Source: Seleniivibrio woodruffii
Lineage (GTDB): Bacteria > Chrysiogenota > Deferribacteres > Deferribacterales > Geovibrionaceae
Length of the DNA: 64,000 nt
Direction: 5' to 3'
Assembly: GCF_004339245.1 (NCBI RefSeq)
Contig: NZ_SMGG01000003.1
Span: 399,106-463,105 of the forward strand
In this document: positions 53,016 through 61,524 of the stretch, in pieces
How positions within the stretch are numbered: the stretch's first letter is position 1
How the letters are laid out: each line of letters opens with the position of its first letter
Position numbers and translations under genes: made by a program
The notes under the pieces: generated by a model
What the model was told of the DNA's origin: nothing
Seen by the model: only the letters and a program-made list of their open reading frames with translations
Databases searched by the model: none

Positions 53016-53498
53016 ATGCAGTTTTCTGTCGGTGTCGAATATGCGCTCCACTGCCTCTGCTACATAGGGCAGGAGAGGCCTGTGGGCGTTAAAGAACTTG
53101 CTGCGTTTCAGGGGATTTCCGAAACCTATCTTTCGAAAATGCTCACAAAACTCCGTAAGGCGGGGGTGGTTCGGTCTGTGTCCGGCGTAAACGGCGGCTA
53201 TGAGCTGACCCGTCCGGCGGACGAGATAACCTTCTGGGATGTTGTTCAGGCAATAGAGGGCAGTTCGCCCCTGTTCCAGTGCGCAGAGGTGCGCCAGAAC
53301 AATATAATAGTTGATAAGAATAACCTGCCGGATGCCTACTGCAAGGAACCCTGCCTCATAAAAGTCGTTATGCTGGAGGCGGAGGACAGAATGCGGGATT
53401 ATCTGCGGAGCAAAACCATCGGCTGGCTGATGGGCGAGGTCAGGAAGAAGGTTGATCCGAAGCAGTTGAAGGATGCCGAAGAATTCTTTAAAAAATAA
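53016..53498 (+). CDS. Rrf2-family transcriptional regulator
   Basis: The 160-residue protein has the Rrf2 winged helix (F-S-V-G-V-E-Y-A; I-S-E-T-Y-L-S-K-M-L-T-K-L; G-V-N-G-G-Y). Cysteines C89, C109 and C113 could hold an Fe-S cluster, though their spacing differs from IscR and NsrR. A palindrome over the promoter of the convergent gene at 53942-53966 is one possible target. Confidence 0.9.
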   Translation: MQFSVGVEYALHCLCYIGQERPVGVKELAAFQGISETYLSKMLTKLRKAGVVRSVSGVNGGYELTRPADEITFWDVVQAIEGSSPLFQCAEVRQNNIIVDKNNLPDAYCKEPCLIKVVMLEAEDRMRDYLRSKTIGWLMGEVRKKVDPKQLKDAEEFFKK

Positions 53499-54700: not shown

Positions 54701-54724
54701 AAACATGCCGCAGGGACATTGTTG

Positions 54725-54743
54725 AAAATGAATATCATTATCC
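54725..54743. promoter_or_regulatory. Fur-box-like sequence
   Basis: GAAAATGAATATCATTATC matches the Fur consensus GATAATGATAATCATTATC at 16 of 19 positions. It sits 24 bases past the end of the FeoA-domain gene and next to the structured RNA candidate. Confidence 0.65.
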
Positions 54744-54767: not shown

Positions 54768-55454
54768 CTATTCTGCGGATATTTTTTCTGCCGTTGCTGC
54801 GGAGATGAACACCCGTAGACCCTCTGCGGTGCATATCACCATGTCCGGATAGTCGTCCAGATGGACTGATTTTCCTGTTTCGATTCCTTCGAGGTTCAGA
54901 ACCGTTCCTTTCGATATACCGTTAACAGCCATTACTTCGCTGTATGTATCCTGACTTATCAGTTCTTTAACGGTGAAATCCCTGTTCTTTGATGCGAACG
55001 AGAACTGGCGGTTTTCTCCCAGAATGCATGCCGCATGAGCTTCGGACAGTCTGCATCTTGTCTTGTGACCCACCAGTGTGATGTATTCCATATGCGGAAG
55101 TTTTTTTATGACCTGAACAGAGTCTCCGTTCTTTATGCCAAGTTTCGTCATATCTTTTGAGTAGTTTCGGGGAACAACAACGGTGAACTCCGTGTTCAGC
55201 TCCTGTTCGTAGATGCTCCTCTTCTCGCCGGAGGGCGAACTGTAAAAAAGATGCCTCGCCATTGAGCCGCTGAGAGCAATGGTGGTTTCACCAATAGCCA
55301 GTTTCAGTGTGGCAAGCTCTATCTCGCCTCTGCCAACCTTGGAAACCAGACTTCCGGCAAAAATACCGTATGCGCCCAGCTTTCTGGCAAGTTCAGGTTC
55401 TTTGACCGATGTTATCCTGTAAAATCCGCCGCTTTTTGCTTCGGAAAGTTTCAT
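54768..55454 (-). CDS. Protein with three FeoA-like (SH3) domains
   Basis: The 228-residue soluble protein has three FeoA-like repeats at about 1-75, 83-150 and 157-225. Each has a K-L-G-A-Y-G-I-F / K-L-G-I-K-N-G-D / V-N-G-I-S-K-G-T type turn. Normal FeoA is about 75-85 residues with one domain and works with the FeoB ferrous iron transporter; no FeoB is here. It overlaps the P1B ATPase by 4 bp and is the last gene of the ferrosome-like cluster, so it may act in iron handling with that ATPase. Confidence 0.85.
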   Translation of the reverse strand: MKLSEAKSGGFYRITSVKEPELARKLGAYGIFAGSLVSKVGRGEIELATLKLAIGETTIALSGSMARHLFYSSPSGEKRSIYEQELNTEFTVVVPRNYSKDMTKLGIKNGDSVQVIKKLPHMEYITLVGHKTRCRLSEAHAACILGENRQFSFASKNRDFTVKELISQDTYSEVMAVNGISKGTVLNLEGIETGKSVHLDDYPDMVICTAEGLRVFISAATAEKISAE

Positions 55455-57553
55455 TTTTGTCTCCCGCTCTGGGACAGGCTCAGAGCATAAAGCAGAGTGC
55501 CGAGTGTGGTTCCGTTGTGCAGAACAGCCGACTGGAGGGGGCTGATGCGTCCCATGACAGACAGCAGAACCGTCATTGTGTTTATACCTATATTTGCAAC
55601 GGAAACCCGTTTGATAACCTTCATTGTTTTTGCCGCCGTGATGCGTGCGGTGACTATGCCCCTCAGGTCGTTGCGCAGAAGGATAACGTCCGAAGTCTCT
55701 CTCGCAAGGTCAGCCCCTTCGGGCATGCTTATGCCGACGTGTGCCGAAAGCAAAGCCGGAGCATCGTTCACTCCGTCGCCCACAAAGGCAATTTTGTGCC
55801 CTTCGGACTTGAGCCTGTTAACAACGCTCAGCTTGTCCTCGGGTTTCATTTCGTAGTAGACCTCTTTTATTCCCAGTTCTCCCGCAACGTGCATGGCGGT
55901 GTCCCTGTGGTCGCCCGTCAGCATAACGACCCTGCTGACCCCTCTCTTTTTCAGTTCTTTTATGACCTCTGCGGATTCTGCTCGGGGAACGTCCTTCAGG
56001 GCTATTATACCCGCCAGAACCCCGTCACATGCCACATAAAGAATGCTTCTGCCGGTTTTGCGCAGTGCATCCGCCGTTTCGTCTGCGGCGCAGCAGTCGA
56101 TGTTCTCGTCGTCATGTATGAAATGGCGGCTGCCCGCCAGAATGTGCCTTTTGCCGACGTAGGCCGAAACCCCGTGTGCGATGATGAAGTCCACCTCCCC
56201 TGTCTCTTCCAGCGGTATGTTCCTCCGCTCCGCCTCTTTGACCACTGCGGAGGCTATGGGGTGGCTGTAATGCTCTTCGGCACTGGCGGCGGTTCTGAGA
56301 ATCTCCCGTTCGTCCATGTCCGAAAAGCTGATAATATCTGAAACCTCAAGGGAGCCTTTTGTCAGAGTTCCGGTTTTATCGAAAATGATGGTGTCTATCT
56401 CCGCCATGTTTTCCAATGACTGCGCACCCTTTATGAAGATGCCCTCGGATGCGGCGCAGTACATGCTGGATTTGATTGCTGTTGGTGTCACCAGTTTCAG
56501 GGCGCATGAGTAGTCCACTGACAGAACCGAGGATGCCCTGCGGAAATCACGGGTGAGAAGCAGTGTAGCAAGGCCTATTCCGAATGTGACGGGAACCATG
56601 CGGTCTGCTATTTTGAAGGCCCGAACCTCGGTGTTGGATTTATTCTTAAGTGAGTTGTTGATGAATTTTGCAATTCTGGCGGTGGTGGTCTCTGCGCCCA
56701 CCTTTCGGGCTTCTATGACCAGTCTGCCTTCGGCGACCACAGTTCCTGCGAAAACTTCGCTGTCGGGACCTGCGGTAACGGGCAGGCTCTCTCCGGTAAC
56801 GGATGCCTGATTGATAAGGCCTTCGCCGCCTCTGACAATTCCGTCAACAGGGATCATCTCCCCTGCGCCGACAATCACCAGGCTGCCCACCAGAACTTCG
56901 CCCATGGCGACCTTTTTCTCTGTTTTGCCGTCCAGAATCCAGACGTATTCCACCTCGGGCTTTATAAGGCTTTTGAGCATCCTGTCGGATTTGTACTGGG
57001 TGGACGCTTCAAGATAATGCCCCAGATTAAGCAGGAAAGTTATTGAACCCGCAGTGAAATAATCCTTTCGAAGAAGAAGCATGGATATGACGGTGGCATC
57101 CAGAACCTCTACCTTGAGGCCTTCGTTCACCAGAGTGTCTATACCTTTCATAAGGACGGGAGCCGCTCCGGCAAATGTGAGCGGAGTGCGGAACCACTGA
57201 GGCAGAAACATCTTCGACAGCCACATGGAACCCGCCCAGTAAACGTTTATAAGGTCGGGTGAGTCCTGAATCTCCTCCTCCGCCTGAAAAACCGCATGGG
57301 AGAAGGTCTGAAGGGTTTTCAGCAGAACCTCGGTGATGTCTTTGTCCCTGTCGTGGCAGACCACGAGGGTGTTCGCCCGTTGGTTGACCCGAACGGATAT
57401 CACCCCGCTGATGCATTCCAGTGTGGATTCCAGCAGGGTACAGTCCAGGGCGGGGTTGCCGAGCACCCCCGCCTTAAGACGTATCCTTCCATCGGTTTTG
57501 TGGGCTATGCCGACTTTTTCAAGTCCCGTTGAATAGGTTTTAAATCTTGTCAT
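55451..57553 (-). CDS. P1B-type (P1B-6-like, FezB-like) metal-transporting ATPase
   Basis: The 700-residue P-type ATPase has a cysteine-free HMA-like N-terminus with D-G-R-I-R-L-K at 21-27, actuator motif T-G-E-S near 253-256 and phosphorylation site D392 in F-D-K-T-G-T. It also has the P1B histidine-proline pair (Y-S-H-P-I-A-S) and G-D-G-V-N-D-A-P. The membrane metal site reads D-Y-S-C-A-L-K-L-V-T-P at 347-357 instead of C-P-C, as in the P1B-6 group that includes the ferrosome ATPase FezB. Iron is the favoured substrate by that comparison. It overlaps the triple-FeoA gene by 4 bp and follows four small membrane-protein genes. Confidence 0.88.
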   Translation of the reverse strand: MTRFKTYSTGLEKVGIAHKTDGRIRLKAGVLGNPALDCTLLESTLECISGVISVRVNQRANTLVVCHDRDKDITEVLLKTLQTFSHAVFQAEEEIQDSPDLINVYWAGSMWLSKMFLPQWFRTPLTFAGAAPVLMKGIDTLVNEGLKVEVLDATVISMLLLRKDYFTAGSITFLLNLGHYLEASTQYKSDRMLKSLIKPEVEYVWILDGKTEKKVAMGEVLVGSLVIVGAGEMIPVDGIVRGGEGLINQASVTGESLPVTAGPDSEVFAGTVVAEGRLVIEARKVGAETTTARIAKFINNSLKNKSNTEVRAFKIADRMVPVTFGIGLATLLLTRDFRRASSVLSVDYSCALKLVTPTAIKSSMYCAASEGIFIKGAQSLENMAEIDTIIFDKTGTLTKGSLEVSDIISFSDMDEREILRTAASAEEHYSHPIASAVVKEAERRNIPLEETGEVDFIIAHGVSAYVGKRHILAGSRHFIHDDENIDCCAADETADALRKTGRSILYVACDGVLAGIIALKDVPRAESAEVIKELKKRGVSRVVMLTGDHRDTAMHVAGELGIKEVYYEMKPEDKLSVVNRLKSEGHKIAFVGDGVNDAPALLSAHVGISMPEGADLARETSDVILLRNDLRGIVTARITAAKTMKVIKRVSVANIGINTMTVLLSVMGRISPLQSAVLHNGTTLGTLLYALSLSQSGRQK

Positions 57554-57555
57554 TC

Positions 57556-57753
57556 TCAGCTTCTTTTTTTATAAAGTGCCGTATGGTAAGCCGCCAGACC
57601 GATCAGGGCGAAACCCGCCGCCGTGTGTACTGTTCTGGCCGTCTTTCCCTTCTGAAACCCCGACACCACCAGAATACCCAGTGAAGCCGCCATGGCATAT
57701 TTGGTGTATCTGCGCTTTATCTGCAAGGGTGACAGTTTTTTCTCTTCGGGCAT
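57556..57753 (-). CDS. Small two-helix membrane protein
   Basis: The 65-residue protein has a charged N-terminus and two hydrophobic segments (about 19-33 and 42-58) split by F-Q-K-G-K-T-A-R. The ATG at 57753 lies 1 base after the previous stop; a longer in-frame start overlaps that gene and is not used. Family not recognised. Position between the 105-aa protein and the FezB-like ATPase suggests a part in the same membrane assembly. Confidence 0.7.
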   Translation of the reverse strand: MPEEKKLSPLQIKRRYTKYAMAASLGILVVSGFQKGKTARTVHTAAGFALIGLAAYHTALYKKRS

Positions 57754-57754
57754 G

Positions 57755-58072
57755 TTATTCGCCGCCCATTTCCGCCTGAACGTCACGGATCTGCTCTTTC
57801 AGCTCCTCCACTCCGCCCTGAAGTCCACCCCAGAGCTTAACCACACCCTTGACCAGTGCTTTTTTCACTGCGGGGTTGGTGAGGATGAGTGCGACGCCTG
57901 CGCCGATGACAAAGCCTTTAACGTATGAAGGCTCACGGAAGTTGAACCACTCTTTAACGTGGCTTGCGGCTGAGTGCTGGGGTGCATAAGGCTGCTGATA
58001 GTAGCCCTGCTGAGGCTGCTGGGGTGCGTAATACTGCTGCTGTGCGGGGTCGAAAGGCTGTTGTGTGCTCAT
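57755..58072 (-). CDS. Gln/Pro/Tyr-rich small membrane protein with GAGVA module
   Basis: The 105-residue protein has a low-complexity N-terminus rich in Gln, Pro and Tyr (about 3-33). The membrane-like segment V-K-G-F-V-I-G-A-G-V-A-L-I-L (about 51-64) follows, then a charged amphipathic helix. The segment is closely similar to one in the protein at 58398-58925, so the two look paralogous. It overlaps the 110-aa gene by 4 bp. Confidence 0.75.
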   Translation of the reverse strand: MSTQQPFDPAQQQYYAPQQPQQGYYQQPYAPQHSAASHVKEWFNFREPSYVKGFVIGAGVALILTNPAVKKALVKGVVKLWGGLQGGVEELKEQIRDVQAEMGGE

Positions 58073-58401
58073 GATAGATCTCCTTGTTCAGTTGTACATT
58101 CTTCTTTTGTGCATTCGCTTACTTTTGAATCCCAAAGATATTTCATTCCTGCGGAAACCACTGTGAAAGCCGCCAGAGAGGCGAAAAGTCCCAGACCGAG
58201 TGTTCCGGCCACAGCCGCTCCCGCTGCCGTGGCAAGTCCTGTTCCTGCCGCTTCCTTCACTGTGTTTTCAGCCGCTTTTTCTTTCGTCACTTTTCCGTCT
58301 TTAAAGTCTCTGTACTGTTTTGCGGCAGAGACTGCGCCGCCTATGACCGCTCCCGCAACTGCGCCTGCGGCCGCTGTTTTCACCAGAACATGCCTGCTCA
58401 T
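58069..58401 (-). CDS. Glycine-zipper membrane protein
   Basis: The 110-residue protein has two Ala/Gly-rich hydrophobic hairpins (about 5-27 and 53-85; A-A-A-G-A-V-A-G-A-V-I-G-G-A) linked by a basic loop. A C-terminal E-C-T-K-E-E-C segment with two cysteines could bind metal. The pattern resembles proteins that tightly pack or curve membranes. Family not recognised. A ggagg site precedes the ATG. Confidence 0.72.
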   Translation of the reverse strand: MSRHVLVKTAAAGAVAGAVIGGAVSAAKQYRDFKDGKVTKEKAAENTVKEAAGTGLATAAGAAVAGTLGLGLFASLAAFTVVSAGMKYLWDSKVSECTKEECTTEQGDLS

Positions 58402-58925
58402 ATCTCTTCCTCCGTCTCTTCGGTAAACATTCCCGTCGCCTTGCCCAGAATATCTGTCAGTGCCGAACGGATAGATTCACTGCTTAAAAGCATTGCCACT
58501 CCTGCGCCCACCACAAGCCCCTTCATAAAGTCGCTTCCTGTGGCATTCACCATCCTGCTCACCTCCGAAAGCTGGGGGTTGTTCTCGATCATCTGCCCGA
58601 ACATGCCGAAAAGCCCGTTCATGGGGTCTTCCTGCCCCTGTCCGTGGCATTCGTCATGGTGCGGCGGCTGCTGCTGATGATGATGAAACTGCGGGGGATA
58701 GGGCTGATATCCGTACTGAGGCGGATACGGCGGATAGCCGTATGGCGGGTACGGAGGCATCTGGGGCGGGTAGGGTGCATAGCCGTACATGGGCTGAAAT
58801 CCCTGCGGGGGATACATATAGGGGTTATAGTATCCGTTGGCATAGGGGTTTGTTTCCGGCTGTGCTCCCGCTGTGTTTTCTGTTTCCTGTCCGGGTGTTG
58901 TTTCGTTTATCTCGTTTTCTTCCAC
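58398..58925 (-). CDS. Pro/Tyr-rich protein with histidine cluster and GAGVA membrane module
   Basis: The start is GTG at 58925, five bases after an aaggagg site; the longer reading frame upstream has none. The 175-residue product has an acidic start, a Y-P-P / P-Y-G-Y repeat region (about 27-80) and a His/Gln cluster H-H-H-Q-Q-Q-P-P-H-H-D-E-C-H (81-94) that could bind metal. The membrane segment M-K-G-L-V-V-G-A-G-V-A-M-L-L (about 134-147) is shared with the 105-aa protein. It is the first small gene after the HMA-like one. Confidence 0.75.
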   Translation of the reverse strand: MEENEINETTPGQETENTAGAQPETNPYANGYYNPYMYPPQGFQPMYGYAPYPPQMPPYPPYGYPPYPPQYGYQPYPPQFHHHQQQPPHHDECHGQGQEDPMNGLFGMFGQMIENNPQLSEVSRMVNATGSDFMKGLVVGAGVAMLLSSESIRSALTDILGKATGMFTEETEEEI

Positions 58926-58973
58926 AATACCCTCCTTTATGTTTTTAGTTTGTATGCTGTTTAAAATCCGGTT

Positions 58974-59038
58974 GAGATTCTGCACCCTGCGGGCTCAGAA
59001 TGACGACTAACGTCACCCTGAACGGAGCGAAGGGCCTC
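58974..59038. repeat. Dispersed intergenic repeat pair
   Basis: GAGATTCT ... GGCTCAGAATGACG at 58974-59005 is the reverse complement of the element at 6955-6984. A related half, CGTCACCCTGAACGGAGCG, follows at 59011. Together they form an inverted pair inside the cluster, between the HMA-like gene and the Pro/Tyr-rich gene, and could partly terminate transcription there. Confidence 0.6.
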
Positions 59039-59333
59039 ATTTTATAAACTCTTCGTATTTTTTAAGTATTGCCAGACTCTCCCCATCTGATGCTCCCAGC
59101 AGAACAGCCATATCCTGCGGCTTTATCACCGCCGGGTCATAGCGCAGAACAACGGAGCGGGCGAGCATGTTCACCCTTTTGTCCAGAACTCCGGGGATGG
59201 ATGCGCTTATCTCCTCCAGCCTCTTGCTGACGGGATCTTTCAGAATGGCGGGGTCGACCTTTAGCCGTATACGCCCTTCCACATGGTGCACCACAGAAAC
59301 GTACTTTTTGACCGCCAGAAGTTCCTCAATCAT
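59037..59333 (-). CDS. HMA-like protein lacking the CxxC metal site
   Basis: The 98-residue protein has an HMA-like fold pattern, with V-V-H-H-V-E-G-R-I-R-L-K at about 14-25 and I-P-G-V-L-D-K-R-V-N later. It has no cysteine, so it cannot bind Cu or Zn through CxxC. The H-x-x-(E/P)-G-R-(I/L)-R motif also begins both ATPases of the cluster and is a marker of ferrosome-type ATPases. It overlaps the upstream ATPase by 8 bp. Confidence 0.78.
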   Translation of the reverse strand: MIEELLAVKKYVSVVHHVEGRIRLKVDPAILKDPVSKRLEEISASIPGVLDKRVNMLARSVVLRYDPAVIKPQDMAVLLGASDGESLAILKKYEEFIK

Positions 59334-61524
59334 TTTTGTCCTCTCCGTTATAGGTTATGAGTCTGGATGAATTTGCCATTATCCCGCCTGTGTGGACAAT
59401 GTGCAGAAGTCCCGCCATTAAGGGGTTCAGCATGCCCACCGCACCGAGCACGGCTCCTGCGGCGTTTGTTGATGTGGCGATGGTAAAGTTCTGATTTATT
59501 ATTGTTTTGGTTTTTTTGCTCAGCTGTCGCAGGAAGACTATTTTGTTCAGATCGTCATCCACAAGGGCAATATCCGCCGCTTCCACTGCAACATCAGATC
59601 CGGCCGCACCCATTGCGATGCCAAGGTCGGACTGGGCAAGAGCCAGTACGTCGTTTATTCCGTCGCCTATCATTGCGACCTTGTGGTCCTTCTGGATCTG
59701 GCGGATGATGTCCGCCTTGTCCTGCGGCAGAACGGAGTAGTGACATTCGTCAAAACCCAGACGCTGTGCCAGAGGTTCTGCGGACTGTCGTTCGTCCCCT
59801 GTTACCATTATCAGGTTTTTCACACCGTCTTTGCGCAGAGTTTCGATCATCTCCGCAACTCCCTCTTTGTCTTTGGTCTGCACAGAGAGGATTCCCAGAA
59901 GTCTGTTTCCTTCTGCAACGTAAAGAACGCTTTTGCCCTCGTTCGCCCAGAGTTCGGCCTTTTTTGCAACGGTTCCGGTTTTGATTGAAAACCTGTCCAT
60001 GAGCTTTCTGTTGCCCACGCACACAGTGCCTTCCGCAGTGTCGGCCGCAACACCCATGCCCAGAATGGTTTCGCATACGGCGTGGTCGGGTTTTTCCAGA
60101 CAGTAGGACTCCGCCTTTTTGCGGATGGCCGCCGCCATGGGGTGGCGGTTGTGCAGTTCTGCGGCGTATGCACGCATCAGCACATCCTGCTCCGAGAAGC
60201 CTTTAAGGGCATGAACGTCTATAACTTCGGGCATGTCAGTTGTGATGGTGCCCGTTTTGTCGAAGCAGAATGATTCCTGTTCTCCCGCATCCTCAAGATA
60301 TCTGCCGCCTTTGATAAGCACGCCCTTTGATGCGGCGTTGCCTATGGATGCGCTCACTGCGGACGATGCCGCCAGAGCCGTTGCACAGGGACAGGTCATG
60401 ACCAGCATCACCGAAAGGGTTCTGGACAGGTTACGGGTGAGAAGCCATGTTCCCGCCGTCATGATGAGGCCGATGTTAACCAGTTTTTTTGCCAGTCTGT
60501 CCGCCTCAAGCTCGATTGGGGCTTTGTTTTCCAGCGATGTCTCCACCGCCGCCAGAATGCGTGAAAGGTATGTGCTGTCGCCCACCCTGTCCGCACGGAT
60601 GTATATCAGCCCGTCCTGAACGTAGGTTCCGGCGTAGACTGTGTCTGATTTAACTTTATGGATGAGTTCCTGTCTGCCGTTTATGGGAGCCTCGTTAACC
60701 ATGGCCTCTCCACGGATAATCTCACCGTCGACAGATATCTTTTCGCCTGTGCGGACTATCACTGTTGACTGAGGCTCAATGCGCTCAACGGGAACTTCAA
60801 TCTCACGCCCGTTGACGAGGATGAAGGCTGTTTTTGCGGTGACATCCAGAATGCTCTTGATAGAGGTTCGGGATTTTTCGGTGATATGCTCCTGCATAAG
60901 CTCTGCGCCGCTGTTGACCCAGAGAATTTCAAGGGCGGTCATGGTTTCTCCGCCCAGCAGTGCCGCACCGATACCCGCTCCCAGAAACGAATCCAGACCT
61001 ATCTTTTTATCTTTTATGCTTTTTGAGACCGCAGAATAGACAAGGGGAGCGGCGAAGAACGCCGTAAACATCCACATGGGGCTGAAAAGTGCCTGAGAAA
61101 ACGCACGTCCGAGGAACCGCTTTGATATGAAAGATGCGCCCGCTGCAACTGACAGGGCAGTAAATTCAGATTTTCTGGAGAGCAGTGCCAGGCTGTCCTT
61201 TGCATCGTCGCATGCGCAGTCGGCCTTTGCAGACTGTGAGACTGTCAGGGGTGCGGGCTTGATGCTCACCACCAGATTGACAATGTCCGAAACCGACAGA
61301 GAGTCGCTTTTGTATTCCACAATAAGGCTGGCGCACTTGCGGTTGCACCGGACAGATTTTATTCCGTTTTTTGATGATAGAACGCTGACTATGGACGAAC
61401 AGAGGTTTTGCTCTGACCGCAGTACAGGATATTTTAATCTGACCCTTTCGGGGGATGATGAGACAATCTTTAACACACTAACCGTCCTGCGCGTCCCATG
61501 CCCGAAGGAACGCAGATTCGTCAA
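59326..61524 (-). CDS. P1B-type ATPase with CPC metal site and altered actuator motif
   Basis: The protein is up to 732 residues: an HMA-like N-terminus with P-E-R-V-R-L-K at 25-31, two cysteine-bearing spots (R-C-N-R-K-C; D-C-A-C), membrane motif T-C-P-C-A-T-A-L (377-384), D422 in F-D-K-T-G-T, the H-P pair (N-R-H-P-M) and G-D-G-I-N-D. The actuator segment reads N-E-A-P-I-N-G-R-Q-E where its neighbour has N-Q-A-S-V-T-G-E-S-L, so T-G-E-S is replaced by N-G-R-Q and the dephosphorylation glutamate is missing. The start may be TTG 61524 or GTG 61476, the latter with aggacgg upstream. First gene of the cluster. Confidence 0.85.
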   Translation of the reverse strand: MTNLRSFGHGTRRTVSVLKIVSSSPERVRLKYPVLRSEQNLCSSIVSVLSSKNGIKSVRCNRKCASLIVEYKSDSLSVSDIVNLVVSIKPAPLTVSQSAKADCACDDAKDSLALLSRKSEFTALSVAAGASFISKRFLGRAFSQALFSPMWMFTAFFAAPLVYSAVSKSIKDKKIGLDSFLGAGIGAALLGGETMTALEILWVNSGAELMQEHITEKSRTSIKSILDVTAKTAFILVNGREIEVPVERIEPQSTVIVRTGEKISVDGEIIRGEAMVNEAPINGRQELIHKVKSDTVYAGTYVQDGLIYIRADRVGDSTYLSRILAAVETSLENKAPIELEADRLAKKLVNIGLIMTAGTWLLTRNLSRTLSVMLVMTCPCATALAASSAVSASIGNAASKGVLIKGGRYLEDAGEQESFCFDKTGTITTDMPEVIDVHALKGFSEQDVLMRAYAAELHNRHPMAAAIRKKAESYCLEKPDHAVCETILGMGVAADTAEGTVCVGNRKLMDRFSIKTGTVAKKAELWANEGKSVLYVAEGNRLLGILSVQTKDKEGVAEMIETLRKDGVKNLIMVTGDERQSAEPLAQRLGFDECHYSVLPQDKADIIRQIQKDHKVAMIGDGINDVLALAQSDLGIAMGAAGSDVAVEAADIALVDDDLNKIVFLRQLSKKTKTIINQNFTIATSTNAAGAVLGAVGMLNPLMAGLLHIVHTGGIMANSSRLITYNGEDKND

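Follow-up and report, generated by a model that had tools for sequence, protein, structure and literature searches.

A clade of P1B-type ATPases without the TGE glutamate, represented in a putative ferrosome-type gene cluster of Seleniivibrio woodruffii

The stretch of Seleniivibrio woodruffii DNA considered here (the window, 64,000 nucleotides in length, to which all positions refer) carries on its reverse strand, at 59326-61524, a gene for a P1B-type ATPase without the TGE glutamate, as judged from its open reading frame, domains, motifs and predicted structure. The open reading frame of this protein, termed ATPase-R, is full length, and a Pfam-type domain search finds E1-E2_ATPase, hydrolase (HAD) and HMA_2 domains in it. 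Membership of the P1B family is indicated by a score of 461.6 bits against TIGR01525 (cut-off 346), as well as by the presence of DKTGT (residues 422-426), HP, GDGxND (here GDGIND, residues 620-625) and, within transmembrane segment 4 (TM4), CPC (residues 378-380). Based on the agreement of the N-termini of orthologues and on an upstream AGGA, the GTG at 61476 is more likely to be the true start than the TTG at 61524. The predicted structure has a complete P-type architecture (mean pLDDT 76.8; pTM 0.62); its best matches in the PDB are CopA, ATP7B and ZntA, and the fold also matches CoaT.

On the same strand, and at spacings of -32 to 51 bp, ATPase-R is accompanied by seven genes, the first of which (59037-59333) overlaps the end of the ATPase-R gene by 8 bp and encodes a stand-alone small HMA_2-type protein (Pfam HMA_2, 29.3 bits, just below the cut-off of 30). 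There follow a Pro/Tyr-rich protein with a hydrophobic segment at its C-terminus (58398-58985), a MamC-like small membrane protein (58069-58401; NCBIfam MamC, 68.5 bits, below the equivalog cut-off of 100), a small membrane protein named 'VKGF' that is a conserved member of the cluster (57755-58072), a two-helix FezC/DUF4405-like protein (57556-57786; DUF4405 E 0.039, below the Pfam cut-off, as is the E of 0.0017 obtained for the homologue at locus L040), a P1B ATPase with TGE and with SCA in TM4 (55451-57553; FezB-like and, by its motifs, of P1B-6 type) and, closing the conserved run, a FeoA-domain protein (54768-55454; PF04023, 51 bits). This order is kept in Deferribacterota and many Desulfobacterota, and ATPase-R leads the operon in most members of the clade described below. 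FezC, a cytochrome of fez clusters, has been reported to be DUF4405-like (PMC10979944).

ATPase-R has CPC in TM4, and the SCA of this cluster belongs to its neighbour at 55451-57553, which by its SCA and TGE motifs is assigned as the P1B-6 FezB expected of a fez cluster; SCA in TM4 is the mark of the P1B-6 ATPases, the FezB class. The FezB of fez clusters resembles ATPase-R in its HMA_2 N-terminus and P1B core, and the two share a type of operon in which FezC/DUF4405-like and MamC-like small membrane proteins are encoded. The simplest reading of the gene content is a putative ferrosome-type (fez) cluster, a context on which the initial annotation did not remark; ferrosomes are iron-storage compartments, a recently discovered type of organelle, and appear as iron-filled vesicles upon iron starvation. 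The fez gene names applied to the cluster follow secondary papers.

The actuator loop of ATPase-R (N277-E-A-P-I-N-G-R-Q-E286) was located by pattern match at 60667-60696 (contig positions 459772-459801), and the codon for Arg284, the residue that replaces the catalytic glutamate, lies at 60673-60675 on the reverse strand; N282, G283, Q285 and E286 surround it. An initial annotation of this DNA had held that the TGE motif is lost while the rest of the catalytic core is intact, and the first part of that claim is borne out by alignments that need no gap, in which N-E-A-P-I-N-G-R-Q-E stands against N-Q-A-S-V-T-G-E-S-L of the neighbour at 55451-57553, with 24 residues between the loop asparagine and A-G-T in both proteins, and in which, as aligned with HMMER, NGR pairs with I-S-G-E of AfCopA and I-T-G-E of CoaT (7qbz). 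A shifted alignment that masks another glutamate is thereby rejected, as the pairing is free of gaps and the sole nearby acid on the far side lies two residues after the arginine (the +2 position). All other P-type ATPases of the Seleniivibrio genome, i.e., six encoded elsewhere plus the neighbour, retain TGE, as do the FezB-like partners in all 24 cases aligned.

When homologues were collected from a scan of GTDB genomes and from searches of the Desulfobacterota (395 genomes) and of the order that includes Pararhodospirillum (248 genomes), the loss proved to be wider than the initial annotation could see, defining a clade that spans Deferribacterota, Desulfobacterota and Rhodospirillales. Deferribacterial orthologues occur in nine genomes (55-100 % identity), all of them with NGR but with differing arginine codons; beyond that phylum, the gene is carried by Desulfovibrionaceae, Desulfobacteraceae, Syntrophobacteraceae-like MAGs and two Rhodospirillales. 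Among 33 non-redundant members, whose mean pairwise identity is only 44 %, the position of the TGE glutamate is occupied by Arg in 28, Cys in two, and Gly, Gln and Val in one each, and by Glu or Asp in none of those aligned. That five members have C, G, Q or V means that the arginine itself is dispensable, and where it is present it is written with five kinds of codon (CGG, AGG, CGC, AGA and CGT). Sequencing error, chance and an isolated mutation are excluded by the nine NGR orthologues with their differing codons and by the lack of the glutamate in 33 of 33 sequences. Two later sequences, L174 and L105, also have TGR; L105 is the same gene as L123, which was already among the 33, so that one extra member, from Rhodospirillales, comes on top of the 33. 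Sequences just outside the clade keep TGE, including L049, the second ATPase of locus L114, and the SCA- and SCG-type ATPases. With the motif columns taken out of the alignment, a tree still shows the clade as monophyletic (support 1.0), with the TGES-containing L049 as its sister, implying that the glutamate was lost once. At locus L114 (3138-7969), two CPC-type ATPases, one with TGR and the other with TGE, are neighbours with a small HMA protein encoded in between, and this couple is a natural pair for comparison.

The second part of the earlier claim also stands, and for the clade as a whole. Invariant in 33 of 33 members are D422 (the phosphorylation aspartate), K423, T424, G425, H461-P462, G489 and G491 of the GxG, the catalytic lysine K603, GDGxND and CPC, and in the TGD motif the glycine is found in all 33 and the aspartate in 32. 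Between Seleniivibrio-type sequences, dN/dS for ATPase-R is 0.03-0.10, the FezB-like neighbour giving similar values, and the gene is under purifying selection. These values rule out a pseudogene; a decaying, functionless gene, which the loss of a catalytic residue might bring to mind, is extremely improbable given also the conservation across phyla, the intact frames and the conserved operon.

Compared with known systems, ATPase-R is a mixture. Its CPC in TM4 is shared with CopA and ZntA (P1B-1 and P1B-2), and its TM6 histidine, His708, aligns with the histidine in the HEGST of CoaT (P1B-4). However, it departs from CopA, ZntA and CoaT in the replacement of the TGE glutamate and in its TM5 and TM6 ligands, and in many members of the clade GEKIP, as in the P1B-1, P1B-2 and P1B-4 pumps, has become GEKIS; from its FezB-like neighbours, with their SCA in TM4 and retained TGE, it differs by CPC and by the absence of the TGE glutamate. 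The match to CoaT in TM6, along with a score that passes the NCBIfam cut-off for the cadmium family (TIGR01512) but not that for the copper family, points to a divalent metal as the probable ligand, and the context of the cluster suggests that this may be iron. Outside the P1B family, ERMA/TMEM94, a transporter of P-type fold resembling an ER magnesium ATPase, has also been reported to lack TGES, although it additionally lacks GDGVND, and has DKQGI and an occluded nucleotide site (PMC13322241), whereas ATPase-R has lost TGE alone. In KdpB, alteration of the TGES loop, be it by phosphorylation of the serine of TGES162 or by the substitution E161Q, arrests the pump in a stable phosphorylated state, the E161Q form having no ATPase activity and accumulating an ADP-insensitive E2-P state (PMC7535926). 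Those cases are, respectively, a regulatory modification and a laboratory mutant, whereas the replacement in ATPase-R is natural and fixed.

In P-type pumps, the TGE glutamate normally brings about dephosphorylation and so resets the cycle. By analogy with such mutants, the change from Glu to Arg should at least slow the breakdown of the phosphoenzyme, and glutamate mutants of other pumps lead us to infer that the phosphoenzyme of ATPase-R may be trapped. In the mechanism that we favour, metal would be bound by the CPC of TM4 and by His708 of TM6, ATP would be bound and an aspartyl phosphate formed, hydrolysis of that phosphate would be slow or absent, and ATPase-R, charged by ATP upon metal, would stay charged, which would make it a switch gated by metal, or else a transporter of very low rate, in the membrane of a ferrosome-type compartment, next to the FezB-like iron pump encoded at 55451-57553. 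Because all residues for the steps that precede hydrolysis are strictly kept, a switch or very slow transporter of this kind is the best-supported account, and we give this mechanism as a whole a probability of roughly 0.55. The suggestion of the initial annotation that the enzyme may be slow, trapped or regulatory thus appears to be its best reading. A more tentative extension, which we consider possible but rather doubtful, is that a long-lived aspartyl phosphate, stabilised by the arginine, forms a metal-charged switch governing the filling of the organelle with iron or its release, in a clade that does without phosphoenzyme hydrolysis.

Weighing against the favoured mechanism are the five members with C, G, Q or V in place of the arginine and the position of some deep members outside fez-type clusters. 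The strong conservation of the whole ATP-hydrolysing core likewise admits another reading, that of continuing turnover, and this is where the main rival enters, namely an active pump in which the catalytic acid has been relocated, such that the +2 glutamate of T/N-G-R-x-E positions the water while the arginine helps to hold the phosphate. An acid does occur at +2 in 29 of the 33 members (27 Glu and two Asp), whereas the FezB-like partners have Val, Leu, Ala, Met, Ser or Arg there; such a pump would moreover account for a hydrolytic core that is entirely conserved. Yet in four members (L051, L116, L119 and L122) the +2 residue is Met, Val or Gln, although three of these keep the arginine, and no gap in the alignment puts the +2 glutamate into the place of that of TGE, at which no other glutamate falls. 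We therefore regard takeover of catalysis by the +2 acid as unlikely.

A further proposal, and one made by the initial annotation, is that ATPase-R serves as a partner of the other ATPase, i.e., as a non-pumping subunit of a heteromer in which the cycle is completed by the FezB-like protein alone. That the two genes share an operon in Deferribacterota and in many of the Desulfobacterota speaks for it, as does their distribution over the 395 Desulfobacterota genomes, with ATPase-R in 18, a strict FezB in 10 and both in nine, a count that is biased, since clusters of this kind supplied the sequences for the FezB profile. However, between Pararhodospirillum (L038) and Solidesulfovibrio the identity is 73-74 % for ATPase-R but only 39-40 % for FezB, meaning that the pair did not travel together and suggesting that ATPase-R entered, by a transfer of its own, a cluster that was already in place. 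ATPase-R is also absent from some fez-like clusters (L131 and L132), and deep members of the clade (L117, L122, L123 and L125) have no adjoining FezB. Separate acquisition, taken together with these two kinds of locus, disfavours an obligate heteromer with FezB, and a pure partner would have no need to keep the full set of ATP-site residues. With ATPase-R occurring beside very different FezBs, or beside none, the idea of a partner subunit is weakened, and we hold it to be less probable still than a relocated acid. In the Pararhodospirillum locus itself (L038, 5098-11689), the TGE-less ATPase comes after FezB and not at the head of the operon, and the donor seems to have been Desulfovibrionaceae-like.

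Some deep members of the clade sit outside fez-type clusters, and the surroundings of L117, L122, L123 and L125 represent a second, non-ferrosome type of cluster. There, the TGE-less ATPase is near a P2-like ATPase of ~1000 aa, with PEGLP in TM4 and an N-terminal region that resembles HMA_2; an apparent S-adenosylmethionine synthetase lies alongside in three of the four loci, and alkaline-phosphatase-like or phosphate-transport-like genes are close by in some.

To our knowledge, the TGE glutamate is treated as near-universal among P-type ATPases, and here an entire clade, distributed over three bacterial groups and under strong selection, lacks that one residue only. Probably a slow or locked switch, not an ordinary pump, to go by its motifs and by analogy, ATPase-R is a natural case on which to test whether useful work is possible for a P-type ATPase that does not hydrolyse its phosphoenzyme, and it would add an apparently undescribed component to what we infer to be a ferrosome-type iron organelle. 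Literature searches found no P-type pseudo-ATPases, and a limited search, with the primary ferrosome papers outside its scope, found no description of this TGE-less clade; the gene may have been seen before without the missing glutamate being noticed.

As regards regulation, the window has a single strong Fur-box-like site (54724-54742; two mismatches to the 19-bp consensus, with 0.01 such sites expected by chance in the window), located 25 bp past the stop of the FeoA gene and not upstream of the operon; it is conserved at L031-L033, L047 and L136, which represent Seleniivibrio and one other genus. A Fur site upstream of the window's own ATPase-R gene is unconvincing, having six mismatches. 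At L035, L038, L042 and L110, Fur-like sites with four mismatches lie within ~140 bp upstream of the ATPase-R gene or at its start. An Rrf2-family regulator of the iron-sulphur type is encoded near the cluster on the opposite strand (53016-53498) and is also a neighbour at L031-L033.
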